DNA of 52,742 nucleotides from Bacillus sp. FJAT-27245 (lineage in GTDB: Bacteria; Bacillota; Bacilli; Bacillales; Cytobacillaceae). Shown here in pieces: positions 2,127-34,249 of this stretch. Each line of letters begins with the position of its first letter. Positions within the stretch are counted from its first letter, which is position 1. The position numbers were made by a program, and so were the translations under genes. The notes beneath the pieces were generated by a model that saw only the letters and a list, made by a program, of their open reading frames with translations, ran no database searches and was not told the DNA's origin. Where the stretch lies: NCBI RefSeq assembly GCF_001273955.1, contig NZ_LIGI01000001.1, positions 3,252,845 through 3,305,586 on the forward strand. The letters are read 5' to 3'.

Positions 2127-2558
2127 CTATCGCATGGCAGGCCCTTCGCGGAAGACATATTTTTTTTGCCCGAAATAGTTGGTGAGTGTGTAAAGGCAGC
2201 TCCCGACGAGGACGGCTGCATCATCACGGTAAGCGGCGGGCAGGAAATCAGCTGCGCCGGCGCCGATTACCTGCCCGCTTACCCAGTAGCAGGCAAAGTA
2301 GCAGATGAGGATAACGGCAATGAACCTCGGCGCCCCATCCGAGAAACGGACGGAGCTTCTGAAGGTGAACGACCGGTTTAAAAAATAGCTGAGTGCCGCG
2401 CCGGCAGTGTTGCCAATGAATGTCGAGAGCCAGTAGGAGGCGCCGGCAATGTTCAATAGCGTTAGCATGATGATCAGGCCTGCCGCGGTGTTGGCCACGC
2501 CAACAAGCGCAAAGCGGAAGAATGAGTTAGTTTGTTTCAGGGAGTTTGCCGCTATCAA
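2127..2558 (-). CDS. GtrA-family flippase-like membrane protein
   Basis: A 143-residue protein with four hydrophobic segments and the GtrA-family pattern: FFRFALVGVANTAAG at the start, FLNRSFTFRS in the middle, and FGQKKYVF near the end. GtrA proteins are thought to flip undecaprenyl-phosphate-linked sugars across the membrane. The gene starts with TTG and overlaps the 3' end of the upstream glycosyltransferase by 32 bases, so the two are cotranscribed and probably coupled. This matches the gtrA-gtrB pairing seen in many bacteria. Confidence 0.85.
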   Translation of the reverse strand: MIAANSLKQTNSFFRFALVGVANTAAGLIIMLTLLNIAGASYWLSTFIGNTAGAALSYFLNRSFTFRSSVRFSDGAPRFIAVILICYFACYWVSGQVIGAGAADFLPAAYRDDAAVLVGSCLYTLTNYFGQKKYVFREGPAMR

Positions 2559-3558
2559 GGCGATATCGCTCCGTTCCCGGTTCGGATTGGTTCTTTAGGC
2601 CAAAAGGCAGATTGAACATGTCGATGTCGATAATGAATTTTGGGCGTTGCTTCGATTCTGTGTAGATTTTTCCGATATACTCGCCGATTAGTCCGATAGC
2701 GACAAGCTGAAGGCCGCCGATCAGCCAGATTGAAATTATCAGCGTCGTCCACCCCGAATCGGGCTCGCCGTAATATTTCAGGAAGTAGTAATACGCTCCC
2801 GAAAGGATGCTGAGCATGCAGGCCGCAATTCCAAGTGTAAGAATAAGGCGGATTGGCGTTACCGAGAAGGATGTAATCCCGTCAAAGGCAAAGGCGATCA
2901 TTTTGCGGAAAGGATATTTCGATTCCCCCGCCTGGCGTTCCTTCCTGTCGTAAAAAACTTCGGCTGATTTAAAGCCGATTAGCGGGATGACGCCCCTCAG
3001 GAACAAATTGATTTCCCGGAAGCGCTCGAGTTCGGTGACGGCACGTTTGCCGAGCAGGCGGAAATCGGCATGGTTGTAAACGAGGTTGACACCCATCTTA
3101 GCCATCATTCTATAAAAGCCCTGGGCGGTGCACCGCTTGAACCATGTATCCTTTTTCCGGCTCTTTCTAACTCCGTACACGACTTCGCAGCCATCCTTGT
3201 ATTTTTTGATAAATTCGGGGATGGCCGCAATGTCATCCTGGAGGTCGGCGTCGATTGTGACAATGCAGTCGGAAGCATCCTTCGCGGTAAAGATTCCCGC
3301 CAGAAGCGCGTTCTGGTGGCCGGCATTCCTGGCAAGCTTCAGGCCCTTTACGAGTGGGTTCGCCAAGCTTGTTTTATAAATAAGCTCCCATGTCCTGTCC
3401 CTGCTTCCATCGTCGACAAATAGAAGCCGGCTTAGAGGCGAAACTTGTCCATCGCCAACCATCGCTGATAACAAGCCCGAAAGCTCCGGTATCGTAATCG
3501 GCAGCACTTCCTCCTCATTGTAGCAAGGGACGACAATTGTAAGGACTGGTTCACTCAT
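2527..3558 (-). CDS. GT2 glycosyltransferase, GtrB/DPM1-like
   Basis: A 343-residue protein. The first 230 residues are a GT-A glycosyltransferase domain with IVVPCYNEEEVLP at the N-terminus, DDGSRDRT and the DADLQDD metal/nucleotide motif. Two C-terminal transmembrane helices follow, as in polyisoprenyl-phosphate glycosyltransferases (GtrB, CsbB, YkcC type). The expected reaction is sugar transfer from a nucleotide sugar to undecaprenyl phosphate on the cytoplasmic face, feeding the GtrA flippase encoded just downstream. The specific sugar is unknown. Confidence 0.9.
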   Translation of the reverse strand: MSEPVLTIVVPCYNEEEVLPITIPELSGLLSAMVGDGQVSPLSRLLFVDDGSRDRTWELIYKTSLANPLVKGLKLARNAGHQNALLAGIFTAKDASDCIVTIDADLQDDIAAIPEFIKKYKDGCEVVYGVRKSRKKDTWFKRCTAQGFYRMMAKMGVNLVYNHADFRLLGKRAVTELERFREINLFLRGVIPLIGFKSAEVFYDRKERQAGESKYPFRKMIAFAFDGITSFSVTPIRLILTLGIAACMLSILSGAYYYFLKYYGEPDSGWTTLIISIWLIGGLQLVAIGLIGEYIGKIYTESKQRPKFIIDIDMFNLPFGLKNQSEPGTERYRLDSGKLPETN

Positions 3559-11557: not shown

Positions 11558-12784
11558 TTAAACCCAGCCCCGTTTGATGGAGGCTTCGGCCATTTTTTGC
11601 ACGCCGGCCATATAAGCGGCCATGCGCATGTTGATTCGCCTTGCTTTGGCGGATTCGTAAATAGTATTGAATGCTACGGTCATTTTCAACCGGAGCTTTT
11701 CTTCAATTTCCTTAAGTGGCCAATAAAGCCCCTGCTTGTTCTGGACCCATTCGAAATAGGAAACGACAATCCCGCCTAAGCCCGCGAGGACATCCGGGAC
11801 AACCAGGATACCCATGCTGTCGAGGATTTTCCCGGCTTCAAGCGTCGTCGGGCCCCCCGCCGCCTCGACAATGATCGAAGCTTTGATATTATGGGCGTTT
11901 TCTTCGGTAATCTGTCCGGAAACAGCCGCGGGCACAAGGATGTCACACTCCTGCTCAAGCAGCTCTGCATTCGTGATTGTTCCCTCGAAAAGGGACGTAA
12001 CCGTTCCAAAGCTGTCCCGGCGGTTCAGCAAATACTCAATCGGCAGGCCATCCGGGTCATAGAGCGCTCCGTATGCGTCCGAAATACCTGTGACAATGGC
12101 CCCGGCGTCATGGAGGTACTTGGCAAGGTAGCTTCCGGCATTGCCGAACCCCTGGATGATCACCCTGGACCCTTTTATCGTTAGCCGCTTCTTTTTGGCG
12201 GCCTCCTCGACGCAAATGGCAATCCCGAGCGAGCTCGCCTTTTCCCTGCCTTCGGAACCGCCAAGCGAAAGGGGCTTCCCTGAGATAATACCGGGAGAAT
12301 CGTATTTTTTCAGCCAGTTGTATTCATCCATCATCCAGGCCATGATTTGCGAGTTGGTGAATACGTCGGGACCGAGGATATCCTTTGCAGGGCCAACAAT
12401 TTGGGAGACAGCGCGCACATATCCCCTGCTTAGGCGTTCGAGTTCCCCAAGGCTCAGCCGTCTCGGGTCGCAGGCGATTCCACCTTTTCCGCCGCCAAAA
12501 GGGAGATCGGCAATCCCGCATTTCAGCGCTGTCCACAAGGAAAGGGCCTTGATTGTTTCGGCATCCACATCGGGGTGGAACCGGACGCCGCCTTTTATAG
12601 GTCCCGCTGCATCATTGTGTTGCGCCCGATAGCCCGTGAATACTTTAACGGATCGATCGTCCATGTGGACCGGGATGCGGACTTCAAGCAGCCTGGACGG
12701 TTCTTTCAACAGTTCATACACGTCCTCTTTGTAGCCCAGTTTCCTAAGCGCTTCCTTCATGACACTTTGCGTCGCTTGTAGCAT
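11558..12784 (-). CDS. Glu/Leu/Phe/Val dehydrogenase, divergent GudB/RocG type
   Basis: A 408-residue protein colinear with NAD-dependent glutamate dehydrogenase (RocG/GudB), about 15 residues shorter at the N-terminus. Catalytic landmarks are kept: GPIKGGVRFHP, the catalytic-Lys loop LPFGGGKGGI, GPAKDILGPDV and NAD-binding GFGNAGSYLAK. Several normally invariant spots differ: AAGGPTT where RocG has AANGPTT, SGQIT for SNQIT, and LAGLGG for LASAGG. It should interconvert glutamate and 2-oxoglutarate, linking to the neighbouring rocD, but its specificity may have shifted. The ATG follows GAGGAG. Expression alone or with rocD is possible across the 112-base gap. Confidence 0.85.
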   Translation of the reverse strand: MLQATQSVMKEALRKLGYKEDVYELLKEPSRLLEVRIPVHMDDRSVKVFTGYRAQHNDAAGPIKGGVRFHPDVDAETIKALSLWTALKCGIADLPFGGGKGGIACDPRRLSLGELERLSRGYVRAVSQIVGPAKDILGPDVFTNSQIMAWMMDEYNWLKKYDSPGIISGKPLSLGGSEGREKASSLGIAICVEEAAKKKRLTIKGSRVIIQGFGNAGSYLAKYLHDAGAIVTGISDAYGALYDPDGLPIEYLLNRRDSFGTVTSLFEGTITNAELLEQECDILVPAAVSGQITEENAHNIKASIIVEAAGGPTTLEAGKILDSMGILVVPDVLAGLGGIVVSYFEWVQNKQGLYWPLKEIEEKLRLKMTVAFNTIYESAKARRINMRMAAYMAGVQKMAEASIKRGWV

Positions 12785-30448: not shown

Positions 30449-31441
30449 GTGCAAGAAGAGCAAAAGGTTTATGATATTACCATTATTGGAGGAGGGCCAA
30501 CTGGCCTGTTTACCGCCTTTTACGGGGGTATGAGACAGGCTTCGGTTAAAATCATCGAGAGCCTTCCACAACTAGGCGGCCAGCTGTCAGCCCTTTATCC
30601 TGAAAAATATATATATGATGTTGCTGGTTTCCCGAAGGTCCGTGCCCAGGAACTCGTCAACAACCTAAAGGAGCAAATGGCCAAATTCGAGCCGGCCATC
30701 GCACTAGAGCAGTCGGTTGAGAAGGTCGAAAAGCAAGCGGATGGCGTTTTCAAACTGACAACGGATAAGGAGACGCATTTTTCAAAAACGGTTATCATCA
30801 CCGCTGGGAACGGCGCATTCCAGCCTCGCAGATTAGAATTAGAAAGCGCTTCCCAATACGAAGGAAAGAACCTTCATTACTTCATTGATGACCTGAACCA
30901 ATTTGCCGGCAAGAAGGTTGTCGTGTTTGGCGGAGGAGATTCAGCAGTCGACTGGGCGCTTATGCTTGAGCCAATCGCTGAAAAAGTGACGATCATCCAT
31001 CGCCGCGACAAATTCCGCGCCCATGAGCACAGCGTCGAGAACCTTCACAATTCGAAGGTCGAAATCAAGACTCCTTTTGTTCCGGAAGAATTGATTGGCG
31101 GAGACGAAATCAAACAGGTCGTCATCGCCAGCGTCGACGGCTCTACAAGGGAGGCAATCGATGTTGATGCGGTTATCGTCAACTATGGTTTTGTTTCCTC
31201 GCTCGGCCCAATCAAGGAATGGGGCCTGCAAATTGAAAAGAACTCCATTTTAGTTAATTCGAAAATGGAGACAAATGTGCCTGGGATTTATGCCGCCGGG
31301 GATATTTGCACCTATGACGGAAAAGTAAAGCTGATTGCGTGCGGATTTGGCGAAGCACCGACGGCGGTCAACAACGCCAAGGCGTATATCGATCCAAAAG
31401 CAAAAATCCAGCCGCTCCACAGCTCGTCAATGTTTGGTTGA
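30449..31441 (+). CDS. yumC: Ferredoxin/flavodoxin-NADP+ reductase YumC
   Basis: 330 residues, almost colinear with B. subtilis YumC. FAD binding is [30 protein letters not shown], then [20 protein letters not shown], with NADPH binding [15 protein letters not shown] near 160 and C-terminal [29 protein letters not shown]-type FAD contact. It transfers electrons between NADPH and ferredoxin or flavodoxin. The GTG start at 30449 has GGGGGG eight bases upstream. It is monocistronic with a terminator at 31451. Confidence 0.95.
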
Positions 31442-31450
31442 TTTATTTAA

Positions 31451-31480
31451 GGCTTCCCGGTTTTTCCGGGAGGCTTTTTC
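31451..31480 (+). terminator. yumC terminator
   Basis: A 10-bp stem GGCTTCCCGG/CCGGGAGGCT with two wobble pairs and a T5 loop, followed by TTTTTC. Confidence 0.85.
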
Positions 31481-31670
31481 GTTATTTGGAGCGCTTATTG
31501 TAATTAGTGGGAGATCCGATTATTGTCTCTTGACGTAGGCCAGCTTCTGCTTGGACCCGAGAGGTTTCGGTACAGTTTCTGGTTATCAGGACTCACCTGG
31601 ATCCTGAAACCGAATCTGTGTCTCTGTTACTCGGCAGCGTTTATTTTTTCCGCTTCCCAGTTTTATTTTT
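31481..31670. other. Intergenic stretch outside the putative island
   Basis: No gene seen. An imperfect inverted pair TTCGGT-CAG / CTG-ACCGAA (about 31568-31614) could form a loose hairpin. Confidence 0.35.
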
Positions 31671-31722
31671 AAAAAGAAAAAACCTTCCCATTCGCTAAGG
31701 TTTCCCAAAATGGTTAGGAAGG
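31671..31722 (-). terminator. Terminator behind the yutM remnant
   Basis: On the minus strand CCTTCC-CCATT pairs with AATGG-GAAGG (one short bulge) and runs into TTTTTTCTTTTT. It sits 30 bases past the stop of the yutM 3' fragment, so it may be the original yutM terminator. Confidence 0.65.
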
Positions 31723-31749
31723 CACTGCTTTATTTTTCAAAAAAGCGCT

Positions 31750-31848
31750 CTAGCATTCTTTCGGGGTGCCGGTGACTGTTGCTGTGCGGAACGATGAGCC
31801 ACATCGGCATGAAGCGATGGCGTTCTGGTTCTCGATTGTAAAGCCACC
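31750..31848 (-). pseudogene. yutM 3'-end fragment
   Basis: This encodes GGFTIENQNAIASCRCGSSF and then RTATVTGTPKEC-stop, the last 32 residues of YutM with several substitutions. It matches the 3' end of the intact gene at 33800-33897 over 98 bases with 13 differences (about 87% identity), and similarity stops abruptly at both sides. There is no start or upstream coding sequence. The orientation is the same as intact yutM. It is best explained as the native 3' end displaced by an insertion, or as a segmental duplication. Confidence 0.85.
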
Positions 31849-31954
31849 AGTAGTTTAAATACGAACATATCAACGTTTTAGCACTCATTGAACAGTTATT
31901 TTTATTTGTCAGGATGTTAATCGCGCCTATAATGGACGACGAATTTAGTTAACT

Positions 31955-32245
31955 CTAATTTCCCCAAACGTTCGACATAATGAAAGTAAACCTAATCCTC
32001 AACCACGTCCGTGGAAAACCACTGTCACCCTGCTCAATGAGCATTTGCCAAGTTAGCTCATTGACGTAATGGACGCGCCCAATTAAATCGTATGAATATT
32101 CGTCATTTGAAGCTACCTCTTTAAATGTAGTGTAAATTGAATATCACAACAGATTCGCTCACTTAATTCCACTAACTACTGCTCATCAATTTCCCCCTGC
32201 TACTGCCGGCATTCATTTTAGTTTTCCGCGGTCTTTTAACCTCAT
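31955..32245 (-). pseudogene. Decayed YolD-like gene
   Basis: The minus-strand frame from ATG 32245 reads MRLKDRGKLK, a stop, then MPAVAGG, resembling the DRGxIKWxP start of YolD-like proteins with the Trp codon now TGA. The middle is shifted into another frame (DEQ-stop-LVELSERI). The end, DEYSYDLIGRVHYVNELTW, matches the YolD C-terminal GxVHYxDELT pattern. Multiple stops and a frameshift make it nonfunctional. YolD-like genes often accompany Y-family polymerases on mobile DNA; none is seen here. Confidence 0.55.
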
Positions 32246-32310
32246 ACTTGGTCAGTCCTTCCGCGTTGTTTAAAGGCATTTAAACACAAACCTACGTTCC
32301 CTAAACTAAT

Positions 32311-32342
32311 AAAAAAATAAAAGCTACCATAAGGTGGCAGCT
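32311..32342 (-). terminator. Terminator of the two-gene cassette
   Basis: AGCTGCCA and TGGTAGCT arms around a short loop are followed by TTTATTTTTTT on the minus strand, 17 bases after the second gene. Confidence 0.8.
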
Positions 32343-32358
32343 CGATAATCATTACCAA

Positions 32359-32700
32359 TTATGCATAGTTATTGGCCAATGCTTTTTTTTTCGTGTCATC
32401 TACAATGATATCCATCATATGGTTATATACTTCTTCCCCAAACTCATAAATAGTTAAAAACTCAAGCTTATCTGTTTTTAATTGTGCCAAAAGCCTTAAT
32501 TCATTAGATTGAATAAGAAAGACGTCTTCATTGTCAATATTTATTCTTTCTAAATAGGGCGAATCCAGAAAATCTTCACCCAGTTGATCAATTTCCCTTA
32601 TCATGCTCCATACTTTAAATATAGATTCACTTTTCCCTTTATAATCGATAATCTCATTAAACCTATCTACAAAATATTTTGTAAAAACTAAATAACTCAT
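32359..32700 (-). CDS. Unrecognised 113-aa protein, second gene of island cassette
   Basis: The start overlaps the stop of the upstream gene by four bases (ATGA type), implying translational coupling. The product is acidic and soluble. An N-terminal helical half (SYLVFTKYFVDRFNEII) is followed by a strand-rich stretch, DNEDVFLIQSNELRLLAQL then EFLTIYEFGEEVYNHM. The alternation of basic/aliphatic strands faintly recalls RelE/HigB-type toxins, but no catalytic residues can be assigned. The DNA is clearly AT-richer than the flanking genes. I do not recognise a family. Confidence 0.8.
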   Translation of the reverse strand: MSYLVFTKYFVDRFNEIIDYKGKSESIFKVWSMIREIDQLGEDFLDSPYLERINIDNEDVFLIQSNELRLLAQLKTDKLEFLTIYEFGEEVYNHMMDIIVDDTKKKALANNYA

Positions 32701-33341
32701 TTTATCCCCTCCGGCACAGGTATTTGTTTGTGCTGAGTTCCTATTTCCGTAATAATTCTTGTAAATTCCTCTATGGTAAATTTCGGCTCTGATTGAACAT
32801 GCGTAATACTCTGTTGATATTGTTGTGCACCAATAATTTTTTCGATTTCAGATTTCTTATCATCAAACCTAGCCATTTTTTCCTCAATAAGTTCAATAAA
32901 GTGTTTCTTTTCTCGGTCTATTTCATGTCTGAATTCATCACGAAGTTCCTTAATTACTATTTCTTTTATTTCTTTTTTGAAGTGTGGCTTTTCTTCTTTT
33001 AAAGTACTAATTACTTTCTGTTCCGCTTCATTTTTCAAAGTGCTTTTTGCACTACTTAAACTTGTTCTGTAGTCCTTCTTAATCTTATTTTGCACTTCTT
33101 TAGTTAATTCATCAATTAATTGGCTTTTTTGGTCCTTATAAATCTTACCTACCCAAAATTTAACCGAAAAAAACAGTGTGCCGATTATAATATATGCCAC
33201 TAAAATCCAGAATGAGATAAGCATATGGAATTGATACCAATTTGCAATATCCCCTAATTTGGCATTTGCTTCATTGCCAAGTATAGTCATTAAAATTGTA
33301 AATATGATGGCCCAAGCCCAGTTTAGCCAAGATTTTACCAT
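32697..33341 (-). CDS. Membrane-anchored coiled-coil protein, first gene of island cassette
   Basis: A 214-residue protein with two transmembrane helices near the N-terminus (residues about 6-22 and 40-64). A long, strongly charged coiled coil of roughly 110 residues follows (Lys/Glu heptads from KDQKSQLIDEL to EKIIGAQ). A short C-terminal tail contains FTIEEFTRIITEIG and ends PVPEGIK. Both termini and the coil should face the cytoplasm. The ATG has GAGGT eight bases upstream. No known family is recognised. The coupled downstream gene suggests that the two proteins act together, perhaps with the partner bound to the tail. Confidence 0.82.
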   Translation of the reverse strand: MVKSWLNWAWAIIFTILMTILGNEANAKLGDIANWYQFHMLISFWILVAYIIIGTLFFSVKFWVGKIYKDQKSQLIDELTKEVQNKIKKDYRTSLSSAKSTLKNEAEQKVISTLKEEKPHFKKEIKEIVIKELRDEFRHEIDREKKHFIELIEEKMARFDDKKSEIEKIIGAQQYQQSITHVQSEPKFTIEEFTRIITEIGTQHKQIPVPEGIK

Positions 33342-33343
33342 TC

Positions 33344-33413
33344 TTATACCTCAGGAGTTTTATTTTACCTTATTTTACCTTAGGTATAATCAAAAAACTA
33401 CAAGTTTTTGCAA
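33344..33413 (-). promoter_or_regulatory. Promoter and inverted repeats of the island cassette
   Basis: On the minus strand, TTGCAA (33413-33408) and an extended -10 TGA-TTATAC (33389-33384) are 18 bases apart. A perfect 8-bp inverted repeat, TTATACCT (33344-33351) and AGGTATAA (33382-33389), spans the -10 and the ribosome binding site. Two tandem AAGGTAAAAT copies lie between. This layout suits an autoregulatory operator. Confidence 0.5.
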
Positions 33414-33636
33414 TTTTAATAGATAGAATATCCCATCAAAGCATTAACGTAACCAAGAACATTACTAAATTTTACGAACAATTGACTCGGATATGCGGTG
33501 GCTCCGCCCGGCCAAACATTCTGGGAGTCGATAACGGCTTGTTTCTGCAAGCTACATTAAGCAATATTACTTCACATACTGGCCTATATCCCCTTACATA
33601 TACATTCGCAGGTTCCAGGGTAAAGTAATGTCGCAT
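33414..33636. other. Island noncoding stretch
   Basis: No supported gene. The minus strand is open for about 50 codons ending at 33472, without a start or site. It may be a remnant coding fragment. Confidence 0.35.
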
Positions 33637-33658
33637 AAAAAAACCACCGCGAGGGTGG
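33637..33658 (-). terminator. Terminator downstream of yutM
   Basis: CCACC/GGTGG arms with a 5-base loop are followed by seven T on the minus strand. It separates yutM from the island cassette. Confidence 0.75.
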
Positions 33659-33798
33659 CCGTTTACTACTGCTTATTGCTATATTTATTAATCGAAGAAT
33701 ATTCGTCGCGGAATCGCAGCCCTTAGCCACTGTTGCCGTTTAGCTTATCGGACATCTATCCCTGACTTAAAAACTTTGTAATGACGCGGTTTTCCGCC

Positions 33799-34164
33799 TT
33801 AGCAATCTTCCGGAGTACCGGCGGCTGTTGCTGTACGGAACGATGAGCCGCATCCGCATGAAGCGATGGCGTTCGGGTTTTCGATTGTGAAGCCCCCGCC
33901 CATCAAGGATTCTTTATAATCAATCTTTGTTCCGTTCAGGATCGGGCCGCTTTCCTTGTCGACCAAAATGTGAATCCCGAACTGTTCAAGTTGGATATCG
34001 CTTTCACCAATTTCGTGGTCAATCCCCAAGCCATATGAAAGTCCGCTGCAACCGCCGCCCTTTACGCTGACGCGAAGGAACGCACCTTCCTCTTCATTTT
34101 GCTTCATCATATCCTTTATTTGCAGGGCTGCCGCTTCTGTAAGGTTTACAATCTGGTTTTCCAT
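33799..34164 (-). CDS. yutM: HesB/IscA-family Fe-S protein YutM
   Basis: 121 residues of the A-type Fe-S carrier family. It has VSVKGGGCSGLSYGLG (Cys39) and C-terminal SCGCGSSF (Cys103, Cys105), the three ligands expected for cluster or iron binding. It should deliver or store Fe-S clusters together with SUF and the NifU-like YutI encoded nearby. The ATG follows AAGGAGGG. The last 98 bases are duplicated at 31751-31848, so this 3' end may have been supplied by an inserted element. Confidence 0.93.
   Translation of the reverse strand: MENQIVNLTEAAALQIKDMMKQNEEEGAFLRVSVKGGGCSGLSYGLGIDHEIGESDIQLEQFGIHILVDKESGPILNGTKIDYKESLMGGGFTIENPNAIASCGCGSSFRTATAAGTPEDC
33800..33897. repeat. Direct repeat copy within yutM 3' end
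   Basis: 98 bases matching 31751-31848 with 13 differences. The longest identical run is 19 bases (GCATGAAGCGATGGCGTTC). With its partner it brackets about 2 kb of foreign-looking DNA, as attL/attR core duplications do. Confidence 0.75.
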
Positions 34165-34249
34165 CCAAATCCCTCCTTTTCCTTGCCTTAGTTATAGTAT
34201 ATTTCAGTTGAGTATCGGTTCTCAACATGTCTGCCCATTTTTGCGAAAA

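Follow-up and report, generated by a model that had tools for sequence, protein, structure and literature searches.

In the 52,742-nucleotide stretch of the Bacillus sp. FJAT-27245 genome analyzed here (hereafter the window), positions 31849-33798 lie between the 3' end of yutM, a gene for an iron-sulfur (Fe-S) protein, and a second copy of that gene end. This segment is very likely the deleted-down remnant of an element that entered the yutM 3' end site-specifically, and the parent element was probably a temperate prophage. According to the scenario we propose, a tyrosine integrase would have recombined an attP site, carrying a copy of the yutM end from about codon 90 to the stop codon, with the chromosomal yutM end. 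The copy of the element would have become the new end of yutM, with the Fe-S protein staying intact, and the original end would have been pushed to the far side together with its terminator. Integrase and most other genes would have been lost later, a YolD-like gene would have decayed, and a two-gene operon would have been left. An earlier reading made from the letters alone (the sequence-only reading) had already claimed that an element integrated into the yutM 3' end, supplied a replacement end and displaced the original. It was right in essence, the island being an old remnant of a mobile element specific to yutM, and its claim is now supported by empty sites in relatives, by the colinearity of the displaced end and by the recurrence of the site in other genomes.

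A repeat search of the window revealed a direct repeat at 31746-31848 and 33795-33897, in the same orientation and with a spacing of 2,049 bases, whose 98-base core (31751-31848) differs from the yutM copy by 13 mismatches (87% identity). In a search of the whole 4.6-Mb host genome, the core matched just these two places (E 6.8e-28), and no third copy was found. Both searches agree with the duplication of the last 98 yutM bases given by the sequence-only reading, and so do the abrupt limits of homology, which in each copy fall close to the stop codon of yutM and around codon 90. Of the 13 differences, six fall within the first 62 of the 98 positions. The distal copy, now outside any gene, carries missense changes, one of which falls in the CGCG motif. 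Behind it, a good terminator had been described by the sequence-only reading. A hairpin with a T-run is indeed present at 31723-31682 and is of fair quality, yet with -15.8 kcal/mol, a z-score of -1.5 against shuffles and no listing in a scan for consensus terminators, it is not a strong one.

The same reading had proposed that relatives be compared for an empty site, or for other cargo between the same two repeats, and that an arrangement shared by all relatives, or a fragment of a second full yutM, would speak against insertion. Seven other species of the genus (G001-G007) were used for this comparison. The site is empty in all seven and none has a tandem yutM; the protein matches of yumC and yutM, the latter found in every one of them, lie 89-323 bp apart, compared with 2,364 bp in the window by the same measure. 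When window positions 31300-34200 were aligned by blastn to the seven intervals, each interval gave one piece ending at 31848 and another starting at 33796-33827, and in all seven species both pieces aligned to the same native yutM end. The distal copy continues into its flank in a way found in the relatives: 31662-31848 is colinear with the native yutM end and 3' flank of G002 (78%), 31677-31848 with those of G006 (80%), and some of the flank is also found in G007 (70%). Because the distal copy and its flank are colinear with the native end of relatives, it is the distal copy that represents the former yutM end, and the element would have supplied the final ~98 bases of yutM in the window. 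The alignments indicate that the window locus gained 2,049 bases, made up of 1,950 plus one repeat. Where the two window copies differ and the relatives agree, it is the yutM copy that sides with the relatives; over the 98 bases it matches G002 at 88 positions, and the distal copy at 79.

This gene end is used repeatedly. The search for the 42-residue C-terminus of yutM covered 193 family genomes and a sample of 397 from the order (16 shared, 574 distinct), and 29 of the 574, about 5%, gave at least two matches at E 1e-6 (nine family genomes including the window's, 20 from the order). The DNA was examined for all nine family genomes and 17 of the 20 order genomes, the set not including G284, G322 and G348. 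In 25 genomes (nine family and 16 order), a full yutM and a displaced end of the same orientation could be paired, at a distance of 0.8 to 40.7 kb, with the pairs of G039 and G137 extending across a contig break. The displaced end starts at codons 83-95 in 23 of the 25 pairs (22 of 24 without the window) and aligns from codons 76-77 in G524 and G466. Other genomes thus hold different DNA between the same repeats, from 0.8 to 41 kb, which is the other cargo that the sequence-only reading had anticipated, and the sequences identify the yutM 3' end as an attachment site. One of the elements, G085, carries terminase and tail genes recognized by Pfam, and therefore at least one member of the family is a prophage. 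In G085 the two copies agree fully for some 65 bases, beginning at about codon 89, and differ beyond that, which is the pattern predicted if yutM there ends in sequence brought by the element. Many other pairs have identical or almost identical ends throughout, which does not separate the element copy from the host copy. The latest upstream boundary of homology among little-changed pairs is codon 92, and the crossover is placed, from the sequences, near codons 90-95. In G516 (locus L148), the full yutM is on another contig, and the genome was left unpaired. One of its contigs has two yutM-end fragments separated by ~8 kb, together with an integrase match of which the listed segment is limited to residues 1-133; this locus possibly represents two stacked elements or an attP-like form.

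In most yutM-site elements, a tyrosine recombinase of ~341 aa adjoins yutM (the G085 protein matches PF00589, E 1.6e-36). Six of these integrases make up alignment A1. At E 1e-80 the integrase occurs in seven of the 193 family genomes, none of them of the window's genus. Scanning genome_contigs with A1 gave 28 loci, which overlap partly with the G genomes, so that the two counts are not independent. In 25 of them the integrase match begins 155-287 bp past yutM sequence, which is nearly complete in 23 and partial in L114 and L119. The three misses are L100 and L112, with just 204 and 165 bp before the integrase on the contig, and L118, a distant integrase (26% identical). At least four of the 28 matches (L113, L116, L117 and L119) are partial or internally deleted. 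The genera with yutM-site integrases include Bacillus, Cytobacillus, Niallia, Priestia, Ureibacillus, Sporosarcina and Paenibacillus, the last of which belongs to another family in standard taxonomy; the Paenibacillus loci are L108, L109 and L111. L119, a contig of a metagenome-assembled genome, starts with 84 bases unlike yutM, followed by yutM codons 83-121 and the start of the integrase, an arrangement that an unintegrated attP, or a tandem, would show.

In regard to other ways of producing such a repeat, a chance or unrelated insertion could be considered, either through illegitimate recombination or by a transposon that duplicates a long stretch of target, and the window island, having no integrase, is compatible with it. 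We regard such an origin as extremely improbable, since both site and arms recur. Besides the window, 24 pairs use this gene end, and an integrase or part of one was found in 21 of them; transposons, moreover, are not known to duplicate 98 bp of target.

Both ends of the window island also resemble those of other yutM-site elements. Arm profiles were built from the 160 bases following the yutM stop and from the ~110 bases before the displaced end, with the window excluded, and were trained on eight other family elements or on six closer ones, G085 and G040 being among the training elements. In the 52.7-kb window, the best matches fall exactly at the two island ends, and the next ones have E-values of 0.005 and 2.2 or weaker. 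The attL arm recovered with the six-element profile (Table 1) is also found with the eight-element profile (33774-33710, E 5.6e-6), and the attR arm recovered with the eight-element profile is also found with the six-element one (31927-31848, E 2.1e-6). In the seven empty-site loci (119 kb) no profile gave anything better than E 0.085, and the six-element yutM-side profile gave no match at E<=0.5. As a positive control, the latter gave its match at the predicted position in 12 of 29 integrase loci, comprising five training elements (120-161 bits) and seven of the 24 untrained loci (22.8-59.8 bits); the window scores 26.6 bits. Among paired elements of the order, those with both ends found include the small islands G361, G538 and G472; neither end was found in G484, G492 and G546, and G524 gave a weak one only. 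Arm profiles are therefore specific but miss many distant elements. A second yutM-side match in the window (11888-11930, E 0.005) lies in GC-rich DNA with no repeat copy and is probably due to chance. The Paenibacillus locus L108 matches the yutM-side profile with E 1.1e-12.

A further alternative involving no mobile element would be a tandem duplication, in which a second full yutM lost its 5' part by deletion. The fragment in the window is colinear with the gene and is followed by a terminator-like hairpin, both of which favor this view. On the other hand, the seven other species of the genus hold no tandem yutM, the displaced ends of 25 loci start within the same short stretch with very different DNA in between, and the flanks of the window fragment match element ends. 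The shared boundaries and the arms rule this origin out for practical purposes, and we give it scarcely any credence.

The remnant reading places the window island among other reduced islands. Seven islands, including that of the window, are shorter than 4 kb, and none of the seven has a full-length integrase; the six others (0.8-3.0 kb) occupy the same site in other genera. Pieces of an integrase were found in three of the seven (216 residues with a stop, 64 residues and 35 residues) and none in four. In 16 larger elements the two ends share a contig. An integrase match of at least 338 query residues is present in 15 of them, with the alignments of G210, G310 and G458 crossing one or two stops, and the 16th, G099, has a 50-residue piece with a stop. 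The repeat copies are identical at 63-89 of 90 positions in small islands and at 64-90 in larger ones. Taken together, copies of small islands (the window included; G039 and G137 left out of the comparison owing to contig breaks) are more diverged than those of the 16 larger elements, with a one-sided Mann-Whitney p of 0.0055 that ignores relatedness; the exceptions are the large G210 (64), G085 (77) and G310 (80) and the small G538 (89). As for the contents of small islands, G492 (L132, positions 2221-3009) and G361 (L133) hold a gene that looks similar by eye and lipoprotein-like in spite of different genera, with the CAP domain (PF00188) tested in G492; this suggests an old shared insertion or a repeated gain. 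In L131 (G397), a small island between two copies of the yutM end holds an Rrf2-type regulator (PF02082) at 1934-2386 and a neighbor at 2555-3466, which by eye we take to be NmrA-like.

It could be argued that the window island is not a decayed relic but a minimal integrase-less cassette that is still mobile in trans through the yutM-family integrase of a resident or incoming element, comparable to cis-mobilizable or satellite-like elements. Both of its arms are recognizable, its yutM-side score stands at the low end of the untrained integrase loci and not below it, and the six further small islands share the site across genera. Yet the host genome has no full integrase of the yutM family, the two best matches (E 3.6e-25 and 2.2e-17) missing the first 100 residues; the repeat copies differ at 13 of 98 positions, no further copy exists in the genome, and integrase fragments that are broken, as relics would have, occur in three of the six other small islands. 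We consider such mobility very unlikely, and of the two fates offered by the sequence-only reading, decayed or mobilized in trans, decay is the better supported; the lack of a family integrase in the host and the divergence of the copies count against mobilization. In a wider form of this idea, all seven small integrase-less islands (0.8-3 kb) would be minimal passenger cassettes in which two recombination arms enclose one or two host-adaptive genes. The integrases of full-size yutM elements, which come and go, would move them, and the yutM end would serve as an exchange site throughout Bacillales. This is very unlikely as well, if slightly less so.

Returning to the remnant reading, the island follows the order, starting from yutM, of arm, hairpin, ORF214, ORF113 (open reading frames), strong hairpin, broken YolD-like gene, arm and displaced end (Table 1). 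The sequence-only reading had called the enclosed DNA AT-richer, which is borne out by 35.0% GC compared with 48.2% for the window, and the GC content of ORF214 and ORF113 is 32% and 29%, respectively (window 48%). By eye, ORF214 has a hydrophobic N-terminal part and a charged, coiled-coil-like remainder. No Pfam family above the cut-off was found for either cargo protein. In PHROGs both gave weak matches only (the best, with E 1.8e-4, being a family without known function). In PADLOC, ORF214 gave a weak LeoBC match (E 4.1e-5 over 102 residues of the coiled-coil-like stretch) and three weaker ones, and ORF113 none. The best match of ORF214 among PDB sequences (E 0.012) is unconvincing, and the 193 family genomes hold two weak matches to it outside its own genome (E 4e-4 and 5e-4). 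No relative of ORF214 was confirmed in genome_contigs, where the search covered close relatives only, or in phages. ORF113 had no match in phages, and the 397 order genomes gave three weak ones, inside longer frames (E 1.6e-4 to 9.8e-4). A named identity for the cargo was accordingly dropped, with no convincing relative in Pfam, PHROGs, PADLOC, PDB (ORF214), the genome sets or phages.

The broken gene could be read as a trace of the parent. When the whole window was searched in six frames with a three-sequence YolD profile, the chunks at this place ranked first and second (E 0.0018 and 0.0069). YolD genes (PF08863) are also present in elements G085, G099 and G040. The intact frames end 153 bp (G085) and 161 bp (G099) before the displaced end, and the last recognizable piece in the window lies 185 bp before it. 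No structural or lysis genes were found in the island: when frames from eight other elements were searched against it by tblastn, the matches below E 0.01 were all YolD pieces.

Since the two-gene operon has remained open, it has probably been kept by the host. In 1,500 runs of simulated neutral substitution, ORF214 stayed free of stops in 10% and ORF113 in 43% at 8% divergence, and in 43% and 74%, respectively, at 2.7% divergence, these divergence values being based on a handful of changes and the runs including substitutions only, with no indels. The stop-free frames lean towards retention without proving it, and the cargo could also be younger than the insertion. As the cargo adjoins the YolD relic near the element end, it may tentatively be viewed as an accessory (moron-type) module, perhaps for exclusion or defence, which is the weakest step of the reading and one that we hold to be less likely than not.

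Table 1. Features of the island and its borders in the window.
Feature	Position	Strand	Basis
yutM, full-length gene for an IscA/HesB-type Fe-S protein, 121 aa	33799-34164	-	Pfam PF01521 Fe-S_biosyn, E 9.6e-20
Proximal repeat copy, putative yutM-side hybrid attachment site, named attL here	33800-33897	-	repeat comparison
attL arm, shortly past the yutM stop	33712-33774	-	best window match, six-element profile, E 1.3e-7
Terminator-like hairpin within the island, could end yutM transcription	33642-33660	-	-9.4 kcal/mol, z -1.6, consensus scan
ORF214, first gene of the cargo operon	32697-33341	-	open frame; CTGAGG ribosome-binding-like sequence upstream, by eye
ORF113, second cargo gene, 4-base overlap with ORF214	32359-32700	-	open frame; GGAGGGG ribosome-binding-like sequence, by eye
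Terminator-like hairpin past ORF113	32321-32343	-	-12.3 kcal/mol, z -5.1, consensus scan
Probable YolD-like gene relic, three colinear pieces with stops and frame changes	32033-32245	-	tblastn
attR arm, just before the displaced yutM end	31849-31929	-	best window match, eight-element profile, E 2.9e-7
Native 3' end of yutM, displaced, from codon 90 through the stop codon; putative distal hybrid site, named attR here	31751-31848	-	repeat and alignment of relatives
Probable native yutM terminator, stranded with the displaced end	31682-31723	-	hairpin and T-run; stretch aligned with two relatives

Several observations weigh against the remnant reading. The empty sites come from other species of the genus only. 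No integrase piece was found in the island at E 1e-3 with seven integrases as queries, only pieces at chance level, which confirms the earlier remark that no integrase is seen; membership in the family consequently rests on the site, the ends and the YolD relic. The yutM-side profile missed 17 of the 24 untrained loci, and among the 16 paired elements of the order each end was found in 11 and both in 10. The divergence of the repeat copies is not a clean clock, because the larger elements G210, G085 and G310, with a long integrase match, are also diverged. The cargo proteins gave no convincing match to related yutM-site elements. YolD, in turn, is not a family marker, because none of the 335 listed frames of 17 order genomes matched the YolD profile at E 1e-3 and because in G040 the gene is near the yutM side of the element instead. 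The relic itself is likely to be real, judging from the pieces and their place, though its signal is modest. In sum, the window island sits at the 3' end of yutM, is accompanied by a displaced copy of that end, has two arms resembling those of other yutM-site elements, lacks an A1-family integrase beside yutM, and is filed, on these sequence features, as a relic of the yutM-site family and not as an intact member. It shares the site and homologous arms with G085 (36.7 kb) and G040 (40.7 kb), as well as a YolD gene near the same end with G085. In contrast to the window island, both are long and carry a long integrase frame, and structural genes were identified in G085.

Comparable systems are described in the excerpts available from the cited papers. 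In Latilactobacillus sakei, sufB (like yutM an Fe-S gene), GMP synthase and glucose-6-phosphate isomerase are reported to be prophage sites (PMC9641780), Staphylococcus aureus prophages are found directly downstream of sufB (PMC11769447), and many islands reconstitute the gene they enter (PMC12884075). As far as these excerpts go, an Fe-S gene is thus not new as an integration target, which amends the remark of the sequence-only reading that the 3' ends of such genes are not commonly named as sites. Like L. sakei-type prophages and islands, the yutM system has a protein-coding target, a terminal direct repeat, an integrase at one end in relatives and a gene that stays intact. Differences include the target itself (yutM, IscA/HesB-type), the loss of the integrase and nearly all element genes in the window, and a repeat of 98 bp in the window compared with the sites of ~20 bp tabulated in the available part of PMC9641780. 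The island is also like a cis-mobilizable element (CIME), which in the excerpt of PMC5704250 has lost its genes for integration and transfer and kept attL and attR: it is without an integrase and keeps both hybrid ends with cargo in between. Its parent, however, appears prophage-like (the YolD relic, the G085 prophage at the same site), where a CIME would derive from an integrative and conjugative element (ICE) or integrative and mobilizable element (IME). Furthermore, its ends are diverged, and there is no accretion with an active element at the locus and no third repeat copy in the genome.

Among the matches listed from the open-licence literature, neither yutM nor an IscA/HesB gene was found named as an integration site; the pair of integrase and site is well defined, with no name in print found within that literature, and the TIGER/Islander catalogue behind PMC12884075 may contain yutM-end loci. 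What began as an odd repeat is now a mapped attachment site, served by an integrase family of its own, at which the gain and decay of elements and the retention of their cargo can be traced across genera. Such integrase-site pairs are of possible use in genome engineering, and for annotation the site explains stray yutM ends, which the 29 genomes with at least two matches may carry.

The integrase of G085 has four phage relatives at E 1e-30, all with 33-38% identity, and in viral_contigs one contig with the integrase was found, at the contig edge. Seven phage records match the yutM end, of which two, at 80-84% identity, are unannotated (209 kb and 3.6 kb, both under the label Staphylococcus phage), and five are below 60%. 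Xer proteins resolve chromosomes and are not phage integrases targeting gene ends. XerD and other solved tyrosine recombinases share the catalytic domain family with the yutM integrases (PDB 1a0p best, E 2e-24), with the difference that the match of the yutM integrase starts at residue 98.

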